Virus record (IMG/VR): IMGVR_UViG_3300020176_000099 | Location: 1-23,690 of that record | Strand: one strand, 5' to 3' | From: a virus | Length of the DNA stretch: 23,690 bases | In this document: positions 12,145 to 23,690 of the stretch, in pieces | Layout of the letters: every line of letters starts with the position of its first letter | How positions within the stretch are numbered: position 1 is the stretch's first letter | Position numbers and translations under genes: made by a program | The notes under the pieces: generated by a model | The model's database searches: none | What the model was told of the DNA's origin: nothing | Seen by the model: only the letters and a program-made list of their open reading frames with translations

Positions 12145-12217
12145 GAGGGCGGCGCGGATTCGAACCGCAGAGTCGTGGGATTTGCAGTCCCACTGGTCGC
12201 CATGACCTCACCGCCCT
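12145..12217 (-). tRNA. tRNA-Cys (GCA)
   Basis: Cloverleaf of 73 nt: acceptor AGGGCGG with CCGCCCT, anticodon stem TGGGA/TCCCA around CTGCAAA (anticodon GCA), T arm TGCGG-TTCGAAT-CCGCG. No CCA is encoded. By this folding position 73 is C rather than the usual U of bacterial tRNA-Cys, so either the end is one base off or the discriminator is unusual. Confidence 0.9.
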
Positions 12218-12224
12218 TGTCTTG

Positions 12225-12294
12225 ATGCCTCACCTGGATTCGAACCAGGGCCGATTCAGCAAAACGAATCGTGCTGCCGCTACACCATGAGGCA
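12225..12294 (-). tRNA. tRNA-Gln-like (TTG) with irregular anticodon loop
   Basis: Acceptor TGCCTCA/TGAGGCA, with U1-A72 as typical of Gln; D arm GTGT-AGCGGCA-GCAC; T arm CCTGG-TTCGAAT-CCAGG. The anticodon arm GATTC...GAATC closes an 8-nt loop (GTTTTGCT); the other register, ATTCG/TGAAT, gives a 6-nt loop. Neither gives a normal 7-nt loop. TTG (Gln) is the best reading; TTT (Lys) is possible in the 8-nt register. CCA not encoded; 70 nt. Confidence 0.72.
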
Positions 12295-12302
12295 TTATTC
12301 AG

Positions 12303-12376
12303 TGTGAACACCGGGATTCGAACCCGGACCTCGGCCGTCACAAGGCCGCACGCTTAACCAGTTGCGCTATGCTCAC
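12303..12376 (-). tRNA. tRNA-His (GTG)
   Basis: Acceptor GTGAGCA/TGTTCAC (one G-T), anticodon stem CGGCC/GGCCG with loop TTGTGAC, T arm CCGGG-TTCGAAT-CCCGG type. A G precedes position 1, available as the His G(-1); position 73 reads A. No CCA encoded. Confidence 0.92.
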
Positions 12377-12385
12377 CATATTCAG

Positions 12386-12457
12386 TGGACCCTCCCGGAT
12401 TCGAACCGGGACTCCTCGGGTAAGAACCGAGTTGACTAGCCGTTATCATAAGAGTCC
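12386..12457 (-). tRNA. tRNA-Lys (CTT)
   Basis: Acceptor GGACTCT/AGGGTCC, D loop AACGGCT, anticodon stem CTCGG/CCGAG with loop TTCTTAC (CTT), T arm CCCGG-TTCGAAT-CCGGG, A73. It reads AAG, the Lys codon strongly preferred by the phage genes here. Confidence 0.93.
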
Positions 12458-12462
12458 TGTCG

Positions 12463-12534
12463 CACGGGTAAGAGAGTACGATTCCCTGCTTCCGATTTTG
12501 GAGATCGACGTGCTACCAGTTACACCATACCCGT
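12463..12534 (-). tRNA. tRNA-Trp (CCA anticodon), aberrant T loop
   Basis: Acceptor ACGGGTA/TACCCGT, anticodon loop CTCCAAA (anticodon CCA), G73 as expected for Trp. The T arm is AGGGA-ATCGTAC-TCTCT: positions 54 and 58 are A and U, the reverse of the near-universal U54/A58. 72 nt, no encoded 3' CCA. Confidence 0.85.
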
Positions 12535-12541
12535 GTGTCTG

Positions 12542-12613
12542 CTCTCCGGGGGAGTTACGATATCCCGACCCTGCGCTTAACAAGCGCGCGCTCTGCCACT
12601 GAGCTACCGGAGA
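12542..12613 (-). tRNA. tRNA-Asn (GTT), aberrant T loop
   Basis: Acceptor TCTCCGG/CCGGAGA, D arm GCTC-AGTGGCA-GAGC, anticodon loop TTGTTAA, G73. The T arm is GGGAT-ATCGTAA-CTCCC, with A54/U58 reversed as in the neighbouring Trp gene and a T-C mismatch at 53-61. Confidence 0.85.
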
Positions 12614-12616
12614 GTT

Positions 12617-12690
12617 TGGCGGTCGATACGAGAATCGAACTCGTGCTACCGGCGTGACAAGCCGGCGTCCTACCATTAAACCAATCGACC
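12617..12690 (-). tRNA. tRNA-Asp (GTC), 3' CCA encoded
   Basis: Acceptor GGTCGAT/ATCGACC, anticodon stem CCGGC/GCCGG with loop TTGTCAC, T arm ACGAG-TTCGATT-CTCGT, G73 followed by genomic CCA (12617-12619). It is the only tRNA in the cluster where CCA is clearly encoded. Confidence 0.93.
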
Positions 12691-12700
12691 GTTTGTGTTG

Positions 12701-13591
12701 TTAGTGATTTTGATAATACTTTACCCATTTCCTTATGGTATTATCACTAACACCATATTTTCTCCCTGTTTTAGCAAAACCAAAATCTCCTATATCTTTC
12801 ATCAATGTTTCATAATCAGGTCTTAATACTTTTCTAGCTTTTATGTCCCTGCCTATTTCCCTTTCTGTTTGTTTTCCATTTATTCTTCTTTTTTGATATC
12901 CGCCGTTTTTCTTAAAGATACCAAAAGAGAATTTTTCCGATCTATGGGCGTCATGAAGAATGTTTTTAAGTTCTGACATGAACTGATTGATATTTTTTTT
13001 TATTTCGTTCTCAGTTACTCTCACAACTGTCCATTCGTTTTCTATTAGGAGTAGATCTTTTTTTTCATCTTTTTCTTTTCTGTCTTCATTCAAGTGTTGT
13101 GATCCATCTATCTCCACCGCCACCTTCTCATTCAAAAAAGCAAAATCAATGTAATACGGGTATACACTATGTTCTCTTTCTATAGCATATTCTTGGTCCC
13201 ATTTTAATTCTAGTAACTTGTTGAAAAATAATTTTTCGGGGTACGAAAAGTTAGATTTTCTCCATGCTGTTTTATCTGGGTTCTCCGACATATACTTCAG
13301 TCTGGCATCTCTCATTTTGACTTTGGTTTTTTCTGTGTGCCTAAATGGATACCTAATCTTTGCTAGTTTAGCCGAGTCTGATTGGCTTCTAGTCATCCCA
13401 TCTAATATCTTAACAATTTTATTTTTAGAATAGTTATATTTTTTCATTAAGTCCCTAATCGAACACATATCCTCAACATATGACTTTATGATACTGTCTT
13501 TTTCTATTGGATCAAATCCACATTTTTTTCTATGCATTGATAATCCACATTTCTTTAAGAAGGACTGACCACATATTTCACATTTAATCAT
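12701..13591 (-). CDS. Homing endonuclease of the Vsr-like/DUF559 (EDxHD) type, inserted in the tRNA array
   Basis: 296 residues. The N-terminus has a zinc-finger-like CxxC...HxxxC set (CEIC...MHRKKC). A nuclease core follows at about 115-205: SYPEKLFFNKLLE, YIDFAFLNEKVAVEIDGSQH and the later WTVVRVTENEI, the layout of Vsr/DUF559-type PD-(D/E)XK enzymes and phage EDxHD homing endonucleases. The C-terminus ends with a helix-turn-helix-like segment (KYGVSDNTIRKWVKYY). The gene is markedly AT-rich compared with every neighbour and uses AAA/AAT/ATT codons, showing recent acquisition. It lies 10 bases from tRNA-Asp, with its own TATATATAG box 3 bases before the ATG. It would cut a cognate site in phages lacking the insertion and so spread with the tRNA region. 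Confidence 0.87.
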   Translation of the reverse strand: MIKCEICGQSFLKKCGLSMHRKKCGFDPIEKDSIIKSYVEDMCSIRDLMKKYNYSKNKIVKILDGMTRSQSDSAKLAKIRYPFRHTEKTKVKMRDARLKYMSENPDKTAWRKSNFSYPEKLFFNKLLELKWDQEYAIEREHSVYPYYIDFAFLNEKVAVEIDGSQHLNEDRKEKDEKKDLLLIENEWTVVRVTENEIKKNINQFMSELKNILHDAHRSEKFSFGIFKKNGGYQKRRINGKQTEREIGRDIKARKVLRPDYETLMKDIGDFGFAKTGRKYGVSDNTIRKWVKYYQNH

Positions 13592-13594
13592 GTC

Positions 13595-13603
13595 CTATAT
13601 ATA
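13595..13603 (-). promoter_or_regulatory. TATATATAG box before the homing endonuclease
   Basis: On the minus strand TATATATAG ends 3 bases before the ATG at 13591, the same tight spacing as other boxes here. With no visible terminator before 11249, it could also drive the seven downstream tRNAs and two small genes. Confidence 0.5.
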
Positions 13604-13648
13604 AAAACTCGAACCCCATTTAAGTTACGTGTCTTTACCTTTATAGTG

Positions 13649-13731
13649 TGGTGTAGGTAGGACTCGAACCTACACGCTCCGAAGAGACCGCTTTTACAGA
13701 ACGGCGAGCCAACCGATTACTCAACTACACC
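13649..13731 (-). tRNA. tRNA-Tyr (GTA)
   Basis: 83 nt with a long variable arm, as expected for bacterial Tyr. Acceptor GGTGTAG/CTACACC, anticodon stem CCGTT/AGCGG with loop CTGTAAA, T arm GTAGG-TTCGAGT-CCTAC, A73. Confidence 0.93.
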
Positions 13732-13735
13732 ATAG

Positions 13736-13809
13736 TGGTACCCACAGGAATCGAACCTGCGCTGTCCCGCCTCTTCAGGGCGGCGCTCTACCAGCTGAGC
13801 TAGGGCACC
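13736..13809 (-). tRNA. tRNA-Phe (GAA)
   Basis: Acceptor GGTGCCC/GGGTACC, D arm GCTC/GAGC, anticodon stem CCGCC/GGCGG with loop CTGAAGA, T arm GCAGG-TTCGATT-CCTGT, A73. Four bases separate it from tRNA-Tyr. Confidence 0.94.
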
Positions 13810-13815
13810 TTATAG

Positions 13816-13892
13816 TTGGCGGTGCCGGATTCGAACCGGCATTCTCAACCGTTACCTTGCTCCAACGTATCAGGTTGGGTGGTTAACCGCCA
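13816..13892 (-). tRNA. tRNA-Ile-like (GAT) lacking a recognisable D arm
   Basis: 77 nt. The acceptor TGGCGGT/ACCGCCA is perfect, the T arm GCCGG-TTCGAAT-CCGGC is perfect with A73, and a canonical anticodon arm CCAAC-CTGATAC-GTTGG carries GAT. But only 7 nt separate acceptor and anticodon stem, too few for a D arm, while 21 nt lie between anticodon stem and T stem. A competing pairing CAACC/GGTTG exists inside the same region. It could be a rearranged, degenerate or specialised tRNA-like RNA. Confidence 0.6.
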
Positions 13893-13905
13893 GGGTAAAA
13901 CAAAA

Positions 13906-13932
13906 AAACCTCGAGATAGAATCTCGAGGTTT
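13906..13932 (-). terminator. 12-bp stem intrinsic terminator ahead of the tRNA array
   Basis: A perfect 12-bp inverted repeat (AAACCTCGAGAT with its complement) around a 3-base loop. Read on the minus strand it ends in a run of U from the A tract at 13902-13908. It lies between the promoter box at 14051 and the first tRNA-like gene, with no further box between. Confidence 0.85.
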
Positions 13933-13956
13933 GTTATGAAGCTACGCAGTTCAGGG

Positions 13957-14046
13957 TCAACTGCGAGGCACGAACCTCGAGCACATGGCAATATCATACC
14001 AAAACTGGCATGCTTGATTGTTTTTATGTTCGAAGTTGCGTTTCAT
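13957..14046 (-). CDS. Possible 29-residue small protein in the leader
   Basis: ATG at 14046, TGA at 13957, with the AATATATAC box ending 4 bases before the ATG, exactly the spacing seen at 8350. The peptide begins MKRNFEHKNN and includes CQFWYDIAMC, with two Cys eight residues apart on either side of an aromatic stretch. No homology can be judged. Its stop lies inside the second hairpin, so translation could influence folding of the terminator. Confidence 0.4.
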   Translation of the reverse strand: MKRNFEHKNNQACQFWYDIAMCSRFVPRS

Positions 14047-14050
14047 AAAA

Positions 14051-14059
14051 GTATATATT
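14051..14059 (-). promoter_or_regulatory. AATATATAC promoter box (minus strand)
   Basis: Exact box on the minus strand. The 83 bases between it and the gene stop at 14143 hold a weak hairpin (14113-14132) and no gene. Confidence 0.6.
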
Positions 14060-14142
14060 GAGATTGTTATCGCTTGTTGTGACTTTTTTTGTCTTTTGTT
14101 GCACAAAGTTACGGCGGGTATAGTTGCCCACCAAATATTTTT

Positions 14143-14856
14143 CTATTCGCCCAGCCTGAACCCGTCCCTGTACTTGGCGTCCAGCATGTAGTGCGTGTAG
14201 TCGTTTTGGTGCCTGGCGTAGCATATTTCCTTTCCTTCAGAACGCATGTATGCGCCGAGGAGGTACTGCGGCGTGGTCTTCACGGTCAGCCTCCTCCGAG
14301 TCCTGTCGTCGGCGTCGGCGAGGCCGTTGTCCTTTATCCAATCCCTGAGCACTCCGAACCACTTGAGGTAACCGTCCCTGACCTTGTCGCAGGAGAATCG
14401 GAGCACCCCGATGTTGGGCACCGCTGTGAGTCCGGCCCTGTAAAATGGTATACGGTCCGTTATGCCCATCCGGGTCATCAGGTTCAGCGTCTCGATGCAT
14501 GGGAGTGACCTCTCCGTCGGCACCCCCAGGTCGCAGACGGCGTCGCAGTCCGGTCGGATCGAGAGGGGGGACCTGAGGTACACGTCCCCGTCCACAAGGA
14601 CCTCGTTGGTGCCGATAAGGGGCAGGGCCGCGAGCTTCATGTCGTCCAACATGAAGAACCCGTCCGTGGGGATCACCCTGACGTCCTCATATGCGTCGCC
14701 GAGCAACGGCAGGGATTCATGGTCCGTGTACAGCGCGACCTTGTGGAACCTCCTCGCGGAGGATGCGCAGCCACGGTACACAGAGACGGCCTTCGCGATG
14801 TTCTCCGGCCTCCCCAGCTTGACGGTGAATGTGTGTACTATGGTGTCTACGGTCAT
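14143..14856 (-). CDS. Glycosyltransferase-like protein (GT-A type, DGD motif)
   Basis: 237 residues from the ATG at 14856, which overlaps the DHFR stop as ATGA; the frame extends upstream, but that part is inside DHFR. The N-terminal strand DTIVHTFTV, a KVALYTD segment, and KLAALPLIGTNEVLVDGDVYL with a DGD sugar-nucleotide/metal motif (about residues 99-101) suggest a GT-A-fold transferase, comparable to GT8-like or DUF6734-like proteins. Donor and acceptor are unknown. It is the last gene of the minus-strand operon that starts at 17652 and the second glycosyltransferase-type gene in the window. Phage transferases commonly modify DNA bases or host surface glycans; neither is shown here. Confidence 0.65.
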   Translation of the reverse strand: MTVDTIVHTFTVKLGRPENIAKAVSVYRGCASSARRFHKVALYTDHESLPLLGDAYEDVRVIPTDGFFMLDDMKLAALPLIGTNEVLVDGDVYLRSPLSIRPDCDAVCDLGVPTERSLPCIETLNLMTRMGITDRIPFYRAGLTAVPNIGVLRFSCDKVRDGYLKWFGVLRDWIKDNGLADADDRTRRRLTVKTTPQYLLGAYMRSEGKEICYARHQNDYTHYMLDAKYRDGFRLGE

Positions 14857-20569: not shown

Positions 20570-23500
20570 ATGTCAGGACCAAAGCTTATTATCAATTTCC
20601 CCCCGCTCACCTCGGTGCCCCCAAGCACCTGGCTACTCGCGGTGGGCGACCCATCCACCGGCGTCCTCTACAAGGCGCCCATAAGCCTACTGACAACCGG
20701 CCCCCAGGGATGGCAGGGATATGGTGGCCTCCAGGGTAGGCAAGGTCCGCAGGGACTCGTTGGCCGCCAGGGGTTCCAGGGATGGCAGGGTGAGAAGGGT
20801 GACTTCGGGGGCGCGCAGGGCAACCAAGGATGGCAGGGCGCGACAGGTCCCGCCGGCGACCCGGGCGGCCCACAGGGCCTCCAGGGACTCCAGGGCCTAA
20901 CCGGGAGTGTCGGACCCCAAGGGTCCCAGGGCAACCAGGGTTTCCAGGGATGGCAGGGCAACCAGGGGTTCCAGGGATGGCAGGGCAACCAGGGGTTCCA
21001 GGGATGGCAGGGCAACCAAGGGTTCCAAGGATGGCAGGGCAACCAGGGGTTCCAGGGATGGCGGGGCAACCAGGGGTTCCAGGGATGGCAGGGCAACCAA
21101 GGGTTCCAGGGATGGCAGGGTTCGCAGGGTCCAACGGGTATCGGCAGGCAGGGCAGGCAGGGACCTCAGGGTCCCCAGGGGTGGCAGGGCCTGCAAGGTC
21201 CTCAGGGTGAGACGGGACTGACAGGACCCCAGGGTTTCCAGGGAGAGACCGGCCCCACGGGCATCGGCGTACAGGGTTGGCAGGGCGTCACCGGTCCCGC
21301 AGGCGATCCGGGCGGGCCACAGGGCCTCCAGGGTCTGCAGGGATGGCAGGGCGTAACCGGCGTGCAGGGTTTCCAGGGTTGGCAGGGCGCCAAGGGGGAC
21401 TTCGGAGGCGCACAGGGAAGACAGGGACCACAGGGCGTACCGGGCATCCAGGGACGCCAGGGCGTGGCAGGGGAAGCGGCGAACGCGGCCAACTGGCGGT
21501 TGTACAAATACATGGGATCGGTCACCTCGCCGACCCCGGGAAACGGGGTTGCGGACGACGGCACCTTCAAGATATGGGACGGAAGGCCCCTCGACACCGT
21601 TGTCGAGATAGACGCATCTGTCCAATTCAAGAACATCGTAGAGATAAACATCGCAGAGGTGGACTACGACTCGATCAACAGGGAACCGTACTTCGAGTAC
21701 CTTAGCGTGGGTTCAGTCATCAGCTTCTACCGACCAGAGGACAAGGACAGGAAGTGGTGGTTCAAGATAACGTCCAAGTCCGCCAACGGTACCTGGTACA
21801 CTTTGGGGGTCACGGGACTTGGTGGCGGCGCAGTCAACAACAATTTCGACTACATACAGGAGTACACCGAGTACGAGGTGGCGTTCGATATAGTCGGCGC
21901 CATGGGTTTGCAGGGATGGCAAGGATGGCAGGGTGAGAAGGGAGACTTCGGTGGGCCCCAGGGCTGGCAGGGCTGGCAGGGCATCACGGGTCCCGCCGGG
22001 GACCCGGGCGGTCCACAGGGGTTGCAAGGTTTCACCGGACCAACGGGATTCGGCCTGCAGGGCCTGCAGGGTGTCACGGGTCCGACCGGGGTTCAGGGAT
22101 TGCAAGGCCCCCAGGGCATCCAGGGTTGGCAAGGCGTCACGGGTCCGACCGGGTTCGGATTCCAGGGATTCCAAGGGGTCACCGGCCCGACCGGCATCCA
22201 GGGTTGGCAAGGCATCACGGGTCCAACCGGGTTCGGGTTCCAGGGACTCCAGGGGGTTACCGGACCGACCGGCATCCAGGGTTGGCAAGGCATCACAGGT
22301 CCGACCGGGTTCGGGTTCCAGGGTCAACAAGGGGAGACCGGACCCACAGGCATCCAGGGTTGGCAGGGTATAACCGGCCCGACCGGGTTCGGGTTTCAGG
22401 GTGTCCAGGGTTGGCAGGGTCTCCAGGGTCTCCAGGGATGGCAGGGAATAACCGGACCGACCGGTATCGGTCTGCAGGGCTTCCAGGGCTTCCAGGGATA
22501 TCAGGGATTCCAGGGTTGGCAGGGGATAACCGGCCCGACCGGGTTCGGGTTCCAGGGACAACAGGGTGAGACCGGCCCGACCGGCATCCAGGGTTGGCAG
22601 GGCATAACCGGCCCGACCGGGTTCGGTCTTCAGGGTTTCCAAGGGTTCCAAGGTCTCCAGGGTTTCCAGGGTTGGCAGGGCATAACCGGTCCAACCGGGT
22701 TCGGTCTTCAGGGGTTCCAGGGATATCAGGGATTCCAGGGACTCCAGGGTTGGCAGGGTATAACCGGTCCGACCGGATTTGGCTTCCAGGGCTTCCAGGG
22801 TTTCCAAGGGTTCCAGGGTTGGCAGGGTATCACAGGTCCTACCGGACTTGGTGGCCAGGGACAACAGGGATATCAAGGATTTCAAGGGTTCCAGGGACTG
22901 CAGGGTCTGCAAGGCATTACTGGTCCGACTGGACTTGGTGGCCAGGGACAACAGGGATGGCAGGGATTCCAGGGATTCCAAGGCGTCCAAGGGTTTCAGG
23001 GAGTGCAGGGATTCCAAGGCGTCCAAGGGTTTCAGGGATTCCAAGGCGTCCAAGGGTTTCAGGGATTCCAAGGCGTCCAAGGGTTCCAGGGAGTGCAGGG
23101 ACAACAGGGTTTCCAAGGGTTCCAGGGAGTACAAGGTTTCCAAGGCTTCCAGGGATTGCAAGGACGACAGGGATTGCAGGGATTCCAAGGTTTCCAGGGA
23201 TTGCAGGGCTTCCAGGGATTGCAGGGATTCCAAGGTCTGCAGGGATTGCAGGGATTCCAAGGTCTGCAGGGATTGCAGGGATTCCAGGGCCGGCAGGGAT
23301 TGCAGGGATTCCAGGGTCTGCAGGGATTCCAAGGCCTGCAGGGATTGCAGGGATTCCAGGGTCTGCAGGGATTCCAGGGTCTGCAGGGCCTACAGGGCAT
23401 CACTGGACCGACAGGTCCCGGGTTCCAGAGCATCTACAACCCGATGACATACCGGGTACTTACCGCAACAGGATCTTCAACCAACATAGCGTATGCCAGC

Positions 23501-23690
23501 AGACACTTCACCATGAACGACGCCGCTATACCTATTGCGAGGATAGAGGGTCACCTGCTTGTGGGGACATTCTCTACCGAACCCACTGCGGTGCCGGGCA
23601 AGATTAACGCGGCGAACGACGTGGTTGCATACAGCACATCCGACGAGAGGCTCAAGCACCGGATAGAACCCCTGGAGAACCCACTAGCTG
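20570..23690 (+). CDS. Giant collagen-like tail fibre with S74-type chaperone domain, 3' end outside the window
   Basis: At least 1040 residues from the ATG at 20570; the frame is open to the window edge. Residues 1-43 form a short head ([17 protein letters not shown]), probably for attachment. Residues about 44-300 are Gly-x-y triplets. About 301-445 form a non-repetitive globular insert ([30 protein letters not shown]). About 446-952 are again Gly-x-y triplets, then a linker and, at the end, [19 protein letters not shown], the start of a peptidase S74/endosialidase-type intramolecular chaperone that trimerises and then releases itself. Triplets are dominated by GFQ, GLQ and GWQ, with GPTG only at intervals. 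It would form a trimeric rod for host binding. The promoter box stands 24 bases upstream. Confidence 0.9.
20927..21115 (+). repeat. Seven tandem 27-bp units in the fibre gene
   Basis: Seven consecutive 27-bp copies (nine codons, GNQGFQGWQ) that differ from one another by only a few bases, starting CAGGGCAACCAGGG. The near identity points to recent expansion by slippage or unequal recombination. Confidence 0.9.
22972..23088 (+). repeat. Four 27-bp units in the second collagen-like region
   Basis: The unit begins GGGATTCCAAGGCGTCCAAG and encodes GFQGVQGFQ. Copies at 22972-22998, 23008-23034, 23035-23061 and 23062-23088; the last differs by one base and a 9-base spacer follows the first. Three- and nine-codon variants continue to about 23400. 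Confidence 0.88.

Follow-up and report, generated by a model that had tools for sequence, protein, structure and literature searches.

The leader locus and its tRNA array

The window, by which we mean the whole stretch analysed (23,690 nucleotides of IMG/VR record IMGVR_UViG_3300020176_000099), is a phage contig of 23.7 kb. Its genes include one for a T4-type tail tube and SbcD-like, DHFR, endolysin and collagen-like ones, the last represented at 20600-23607 by one or more long Gly-X-X repeat genes typical of phage fibres. The features considered here lie on its minus strand and are listed in the order of transcription.

14051-14059, minus strand: promoter-like box AATATATAC, the late-type motif of the lineage, recurring before ORFs in the window and its relatives
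13957-14046, minus strand: putative leader peptide ORF, 29 codons, ATG start, MKRNFEHKNNQACQFWYDIAMCSRFVPRS; control codons 4-18 match the amino acids of the downstream tRNAs
14030-14037, minus strand: region 1, AACTTCGA (protector), partner of region 2 when the ribosome is absent (MFE fold)
13973-13981, minus strand: region 2, CTCGAGGTT, antiterminator arm, exact complement of the terminator 5' arm (duplex z -5.2)
13944-13965, minus strand: hairpin CGCAGTTGACCCTGAACTGCG between regions 2 and 3, holding the stop codon (fold)
13923-13931, minus strand: region 3, AACCTCGAG, core of the terminator 5' arm (13921-13932; fold)
13906-13932, minus strand: intrinsic terminator AAACCTCGAGATTCTATCTCGAGGTTT followed by a T run (terminator scan; z -5.9)
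13917-13906, minus strand: region 4, the terminator 3' arm
13816-13892, minus strand: tRNA-like element of uncertain identity, its loop reading GAT (Ile) in the Rfam alignment (Rfam tRNA, 33.5 bits)
13735-13809, minus strand: tRNA-Phe(GAA) (ARAGORN)
13648-13731, minus strand: tRNA-Tyr(GTA) (ARAGORN)
13596-13603, minus strand: TATATATA box of the HNH-type gene, a few nt before its ATG
12701-13591, minus strand: HNH-type endonuclease-like gene within the array (PHROGs 559/9529)
12617-12690, minus strand: tRNA-Asp(GTC) (ARAGORN)
12541-12613, minus strand: tRNA-Asn(GTT) (ARAGORN)
12462-12534, minus strand: tRNA-Trp(CCA) (ARAGORN)
12385-12457, minus strand: tRNA-Lys(CTT) (ARAGORN)
12302-12376, minus strand: tRNA-His(GTG) (ARAGORN)
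12224-12294, minus strand: Gln-like tRNA with an enlarged anticodon loop (TTTG) (ARAGORN; fold)
12145-12217, minus strand: tRNA-Cys(GCA) (ARAGORN)

The box, ORF, hairpins and terminator of the original prediction were all found where it had placed them, on the minus strand. As it had claimed, CTCGAGGTT (13981-13973) exactly complements AACCTCGAG (13931-13923) in the terminator 5' arm, and the ORF ends inside the second hairpin, at a TGA codon that lies 24 nt ahead of the terminator stem. Its statement that the tRNAs show no other promoter is valid as far as the first tRNAs go; for the second half of the array, the TATATATA box (13603-13596) ahead of the HNH gene could serve. Through that box, the distal tRNAs could be transcribed past the attenuator proposed below.

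The tRNA-like element at 13816-13892, which drew no ARAGORN call, has an intact T arm and acceptor, lacks the D arm and carries an 18-nt insertion ahead of the T arm. The enlarged loop of the Gln-like tRNA could confer resistance to anticodon nucleases or allow four-base decoding. Similar tRNAs, reported as '???' (gtag, ttac), occur in arrays of LR745206 and LR756501.

A box of the form AATATATA[C/T] is found repeatedly ahead of long ORFs, both in the window and in its relatives, with either 12-14 nt or about 28-33 nt between it and the ATG. To illustrate, AATATATAC/T boxes at these distances from an ATG occur at 2487, 3968, 8337, 10514 and 20537 (plus strand) and 17664 (minus strand) of the window, and also in contigs G001-G004. 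The 20-mer AATATATACTTTTATGAAAC of the window recurs without change in the 642-kb phage LR756502, where blastn located it at the beginning of an ORF of 134 codons. From its distribution, the box appears to serve as a promoter motif throughout the lineage, and one class of the genes behind it looks leaderless. The working distance of the T4 late promoter to its start site is the basis for this last suggestion: if the box acts at that distance, the 12-14 nt spacing would place the start codon at the transcription start, giving a leaderless mRNA. The ATG of the leader ORF sits at the box spacing of such genes. A truncated protein gene, considered on account of a similarity to contig G004, was rejected, the similarity being mainly one of shared promoter and ATG context. 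Generic promoter and terminator counts, among them four terminator-like sites where 5.3 would be expected, are no higher than in shuffled sequence and cannot carry the case; at the leader site, the generic scan returned no sigma-70 match.

The decisive point, absent from the original prediction, is a correspondence between codons and tRNAs. The peptide MKRNFEHKNNQACQFWYDIAMCSRFVPRS holds all eight amino acids named by ARAGORN in the array (Phe, Tyr, Asp, Asn, Trp, Lys, His and Cys), as well as Gln, for the Gln-like tRNA. All eight fall within the 15 codons from 4 to 18, for which the chance is 1.8e-4 with random residues at the composition of the phage. These control codons read N F E H K N N Q A C Q F W Y D. 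Two of the residues, E and A, have no matching tRNA seen downstream, and the Lys codon of the leader is AAA, with an array tRNA-Lys of anticodon CTT.

Folding of the leader RNA

Folding of the 144-nt RNA, taken from the expected start as far as the T run, gave -55.1 kcal/mol (z -7.75); with the terminator left out, z is still -4.76. In the ribosome-free fold, region 1, AACTTCGA (nt 10-17), pairs with region 2 along TCGAGGTT (nt 67-74), and the terminator hairpin 3:4 forms. This protector pairing, as a route to termination without translation, refers to the window leader only.

Stalled ribosomes were simulated by removing the covered nucleotides, with an assumed footprint of 11 nt past the A-site codon and a transcript ending before region 4. 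With the A site at codon 4, 7, 11, 14, 16 or 18, nine base pairs form between regions 2 and 3, whereas from codon 20 onward this antiterminator pairing is gone. The control block, N4-D18, thus ends where the geometry requires. Of the two competing structures, the terminator is thermodynamically the more stable one as soon as region 4 completes the hairpin. The switch must accordingly be kinetic, as is likewise the choice in classical attenuators.

Matching leaders across a lineage of huge phages

No close homologue of the window leader was found by exact searches with a terminator 25-mer and a hairpin 21-mer in viral contigs or by blastn in phages, where the leader region returned the promoter 20-mer and chance matches only. 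A covariance model of the window RNA gave no credible relative. The base pairs are consequently without covariation support, the case resting on analogy of layout, and conservation was sought in the layout instead of the sequence. The glycosyltransferase and DHFR genes, used as queries, yielded no close relative; the tail tube gene did yield relatives, namely contigs at up to 73% identity, then LR756502, LR745206, LR756504, LR756501 and LR756500 at 67 to 28%, followed by Bacteroidota phages including Lak.

The leader layout occurs at most tRNA arrays of these homologous phages, which comprise huge phages of 462-735 kb, Prevotella phage Lak and several IMG/VR contigs. A huge-phage survey has reported up to 67 tRNAs per genome (PMC7162821). 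The shared layout consists of the box, an ORF of 16-42 codons whose stop lies 19-48 nt ahead of a strong terminator, and then the tRNAs; in the fetched regions of five huge phages, 170 of the 216 tRNAs lie downstream of such a leader. The peptide differs from array to array, and its residues match the tRNAs that follow, as in these examples.

MTTSFQQQQQQQINRTD: ahead of four Gln tRNAs
MKTKKQQYKQYQPQYKTVMGVYSLFGT: ahead of Tyr, Gln and Lys tRNAs
MKTINNTSKSSSRSSSMSEIRLYS: ahead of Arg and Ser tRNAs
MKAMILSLCLSLSLSLQKLGVVGVCKVIS: ahead of Leu, Ser and Cys tRNAs
MLFNSNISVKFTPAPAVAFRRGTGTGTGTCVPAGCGFEGMNG: ahead of Arg, Thr, Val, Ala, Gly and Pro tRNAs

Leaders of Lak-A1 and the IMG/VR contig G007 likewise have residues that match their arrays, and LR756502 has a polyGln leader.

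The match was measured over 30 distinct leaders from the window, LR756502, LR745206, LR756504, LR756501, LR756500, Lak-A1 and G007 (a first set numbered 27, two of them counted twice). Residues belonging to array amino acids make up 45% of the leaders, as against 20% with permuted arrays (z 12.2, 0 of 20,000 permutations), and 99% of array amino acids are present in their own leader, as against 61% (z 7.6, 0 of 20,000); the arrays of related phages are partly orthologous, and to that extent the leaders behind these values are not fully independent. The signal resides in frame 0 only (z 12.4), the +1 and +2 frames giving 0.2 and -2.2. Under simple wobble rules, 335 of the 388 residues of the matching set have codons that the array can read. 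Between codon 4 and the antiterminator, 61% of the residues match, and beyond this block 24% do (p 7e-23); with few exceptions, the antiterminator segment of a leader starts only once the control block has ended. Its complementarity to the terminator 5' arm exceeds that in dinucleotide shuffles (Stouffer z -12.9, Fisher p 2.5e-15; 25 leaders). Of the 30 leaders, 24 have a box no more than 48 nt from their ATG, where shuffles give 9.8; the other six have no recognisable box at that distance.

The unchanged pipeline was also run on 18 held-out leaders from contigs found later. The two match scores were z 7.15 and 4.97 (0 of 20,000 each), with one leader (L297, 2669) kept in the test that the longest-ORF rule had probably picked wrongly, and the antiterminator gave a Fisher p of 1.7e-10. 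As controls, seven tRNA-rich phages reached through their DHFR genes (G010, G012-G015, G017 and G019) yielded three ORF/terminator pairs and no enrichment; a tail-tube homologue is absent from six of the seven, six having been checked.

Two further loci resemble these leaders. At 4071-4181 of L151 (LR745206), a box, a short ORF (MRALHTYKITIDLG) and a terminator have no tRNA detected behind them, a short basic protein coming next; this is possibly the attenuator of another gene, or a tRNA may lie undetected behind it. In the unrelated tRNA-rich phage G010, at about 14000 of L197 on the minus strand, a Gln-rich ORF (MYMQQQQQREYG...) and a terminator precede Gln, Pro, Leu, Ser and His tRNAs, which may be chance or an independent case.

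Probable attenuation of phage tRNA genes

Taken together, the codon match and the modelled folds indicate that the window leader is very probably a ribosome-mediated transcription attenuator of the trp/his type, controlling the phage tRNA array and sensing a shortage of the very tRNAs it controls. Judging by the box spacing, transcription would begin right after the box, at or beside the leader ATG, and a ribosome would translate the leader close behind the polymerase, a step with which the frame-specific signal agrees. With tRNAs plentiful, the ribosome would reach the stop codon and cover region 2, so that the 3:4 terminator could form and an RNA of about 140 nt would be released as the expected 'off' product. 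Without a ribosome, the 1:2 pairing predicted by folding would likewise leave the terminator to form. Should any control codon become slow for want of charged tRNA, the ribosome would stall over region 1, leaving region 2 free to pair with region 3; this pairing, seen in the folding, would block the terminator, and the polymerase would presumably read into the tRNA genes. The leader would thus be an OR gate with about ten amino acids as inputs, and its opening would replenish precisely the corresponding tRNAs. A separate leader, with matching codons of its own, would serve each array throughout the lineage.

The original prediction had left a choice between a translation-controlled attenuator and an independent small RNA. 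The attenuator gains strong support from codons that match the tRNAs, from an antiterminator placed right after the matching codons and from the recurrence of the layout in related huge phages; given this support, the small RNA is not needed. An independent RNA, structured and some 140 nt long, made from a promoter and ended by a terminator of its own, with an accidental ORF and no relation to the tRNAs, would account for the strong fold (z -7.75), for a 5' end that pairs with sequence ahead of the terminator and for the clean promoter and terminator. It is nevertheless very unlikely, as the codon-tRNA match is frame-specific in 30 leaders and appears again in the 18 held-out ones, while the ORF is open in every case and the leaders are not conserved as RNA although the layout is. 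An open ORF might instead encode a functional micro-protein from a leaderless mRNA, the terminator merely ending the transcript and the tRNAs being made from elsewhere; the ATG does stand at box + 13, the spacing of the leaderless-type genes of the lineage, and a gene start of contig G004 is similar over the first codons. Past the start, however, the peptides share no sequence and vary with the array (polyGln, polySer/Arg or Leu/Ser), and the last part of the ORF also supplies the antiterminator, which renders a micro-protein even less probable than the small RNA.

Still more improbable is a T-box-like or other direct tRNA-binding switch, in which uncharged tRNA would bind the leader itself. 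T-box riboswitches share with the phage leader the sensing of tRNA charging, the choice at the end between terminator and antiterminator, and the control of translation-related genes, but they have no ORF and use no ribosome, the specifier codon binding the tRNA directly. The present signal needs an open reading frame and spans many consecutive codons, not one specifier triplet. No T-box match reached the Rfam gathering score in the window, nor E<=10 in 13800-14150, and among Rfam small RNA families only tRNA reached its gathering cut-off. Finally, terminators ahead of tRNA arrays could serve to insulate them from upstream transcription, with the codon match a coincidence or a product of shared low-complexity bias. 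Such an explanation has next to no probability, given that none of 20,000 permutations reached the observed match in the discovery set or in the held-out set, that the other frames give no signal and that a box stands before most leaders.

The attenuator reading agrees in most respects with the trp and his attenuators of enterobacteria. These share the promoter, the short leader ORF with regulatory codons, the competition between protector, antiterminator and terminator, and a stop codon whose position lets a ribosome that completes the leader cover the antiterminator. As far as sequence can tell, the phage leaders are rich in codons of the regulated amino acids (z 12.2, held-out 7.15, frame 0). 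In the window, an intrinsic terminator (13932-13906) lies between the leader ORF and the first regulated gene, the antiterminator is exposed in folding only by a stall at control codons 4-18, and the protector pairing 1:2 is present in the MFE fold. Unlike the trp and his leaders, with which it has no sequence homology, the phage leader would control tRNA genes rather than amino-acid biosynthesis and would sense several to ten amino acids at once; it is set in a phage and begins at or near the presumed start site. The Rfam His_leader model (RF00514) scored 25.7 bits (E 0.03), below its gathering cut-off of 49; this and the other sub-threshold Rfam matches (asX2 and others) were taken as chance by sequence. 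The His_leader match nonetheless turned out to have pointed at what we regard as the right mechanism.

No report of leader-peptide attenuation of tRNA genes, phage ones included, was found in the literature covered (papers free of subscription and a minority of preprints); the word attenuation is absent from PMC10264068, and neither 'attenuat' nor 'leader' occurs in PMC7162821. In principle the system follows the trp and his attenuators; to our knowledge, the tRNA-gene target, the phage setting and the many-codon input are new.

Candidate physiological triggers are the phage's codon demand, starvation for amino acids and cleavage of tRNAs by the defences of the host. Host tRNAs that infection depletes are supplemented or replaced by tRNAs of the phage, and phage tRNAs have been reported to counter tRNA-targeting host defences (PMC10264068, PMC11555353). 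Cleavage is for this last reason an attractive candidate; these works treat tRNA sequence and supply. We tentatively raise the possibility, to which we give rather less than even chances, that the leaders sound an alarm when anticodon nucleases or other defences of the host destroy tRNAs, the stalled ribosome turning on an array of exact replacement tRNAs.

The layout provides a simple genomic signature for finding similar systems elsewhere, and the leader a natural multi-input tRNA sensor usable as a reporter. The purpose of phage tRNAs has been debated for decades, and the control of their expression is hardly known. The match between leaders and their own tRNAs suggests phages that track tRNA supply at the level of single codons and produce tRNAs when they are needed. 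The debate between codon compensation and counter-defence becomes a direct experiment, namely which conditions open which attenuator. If the alarm reading is true, the arrays would be an inducible counter-defence and not constitutive aids to codon usage.
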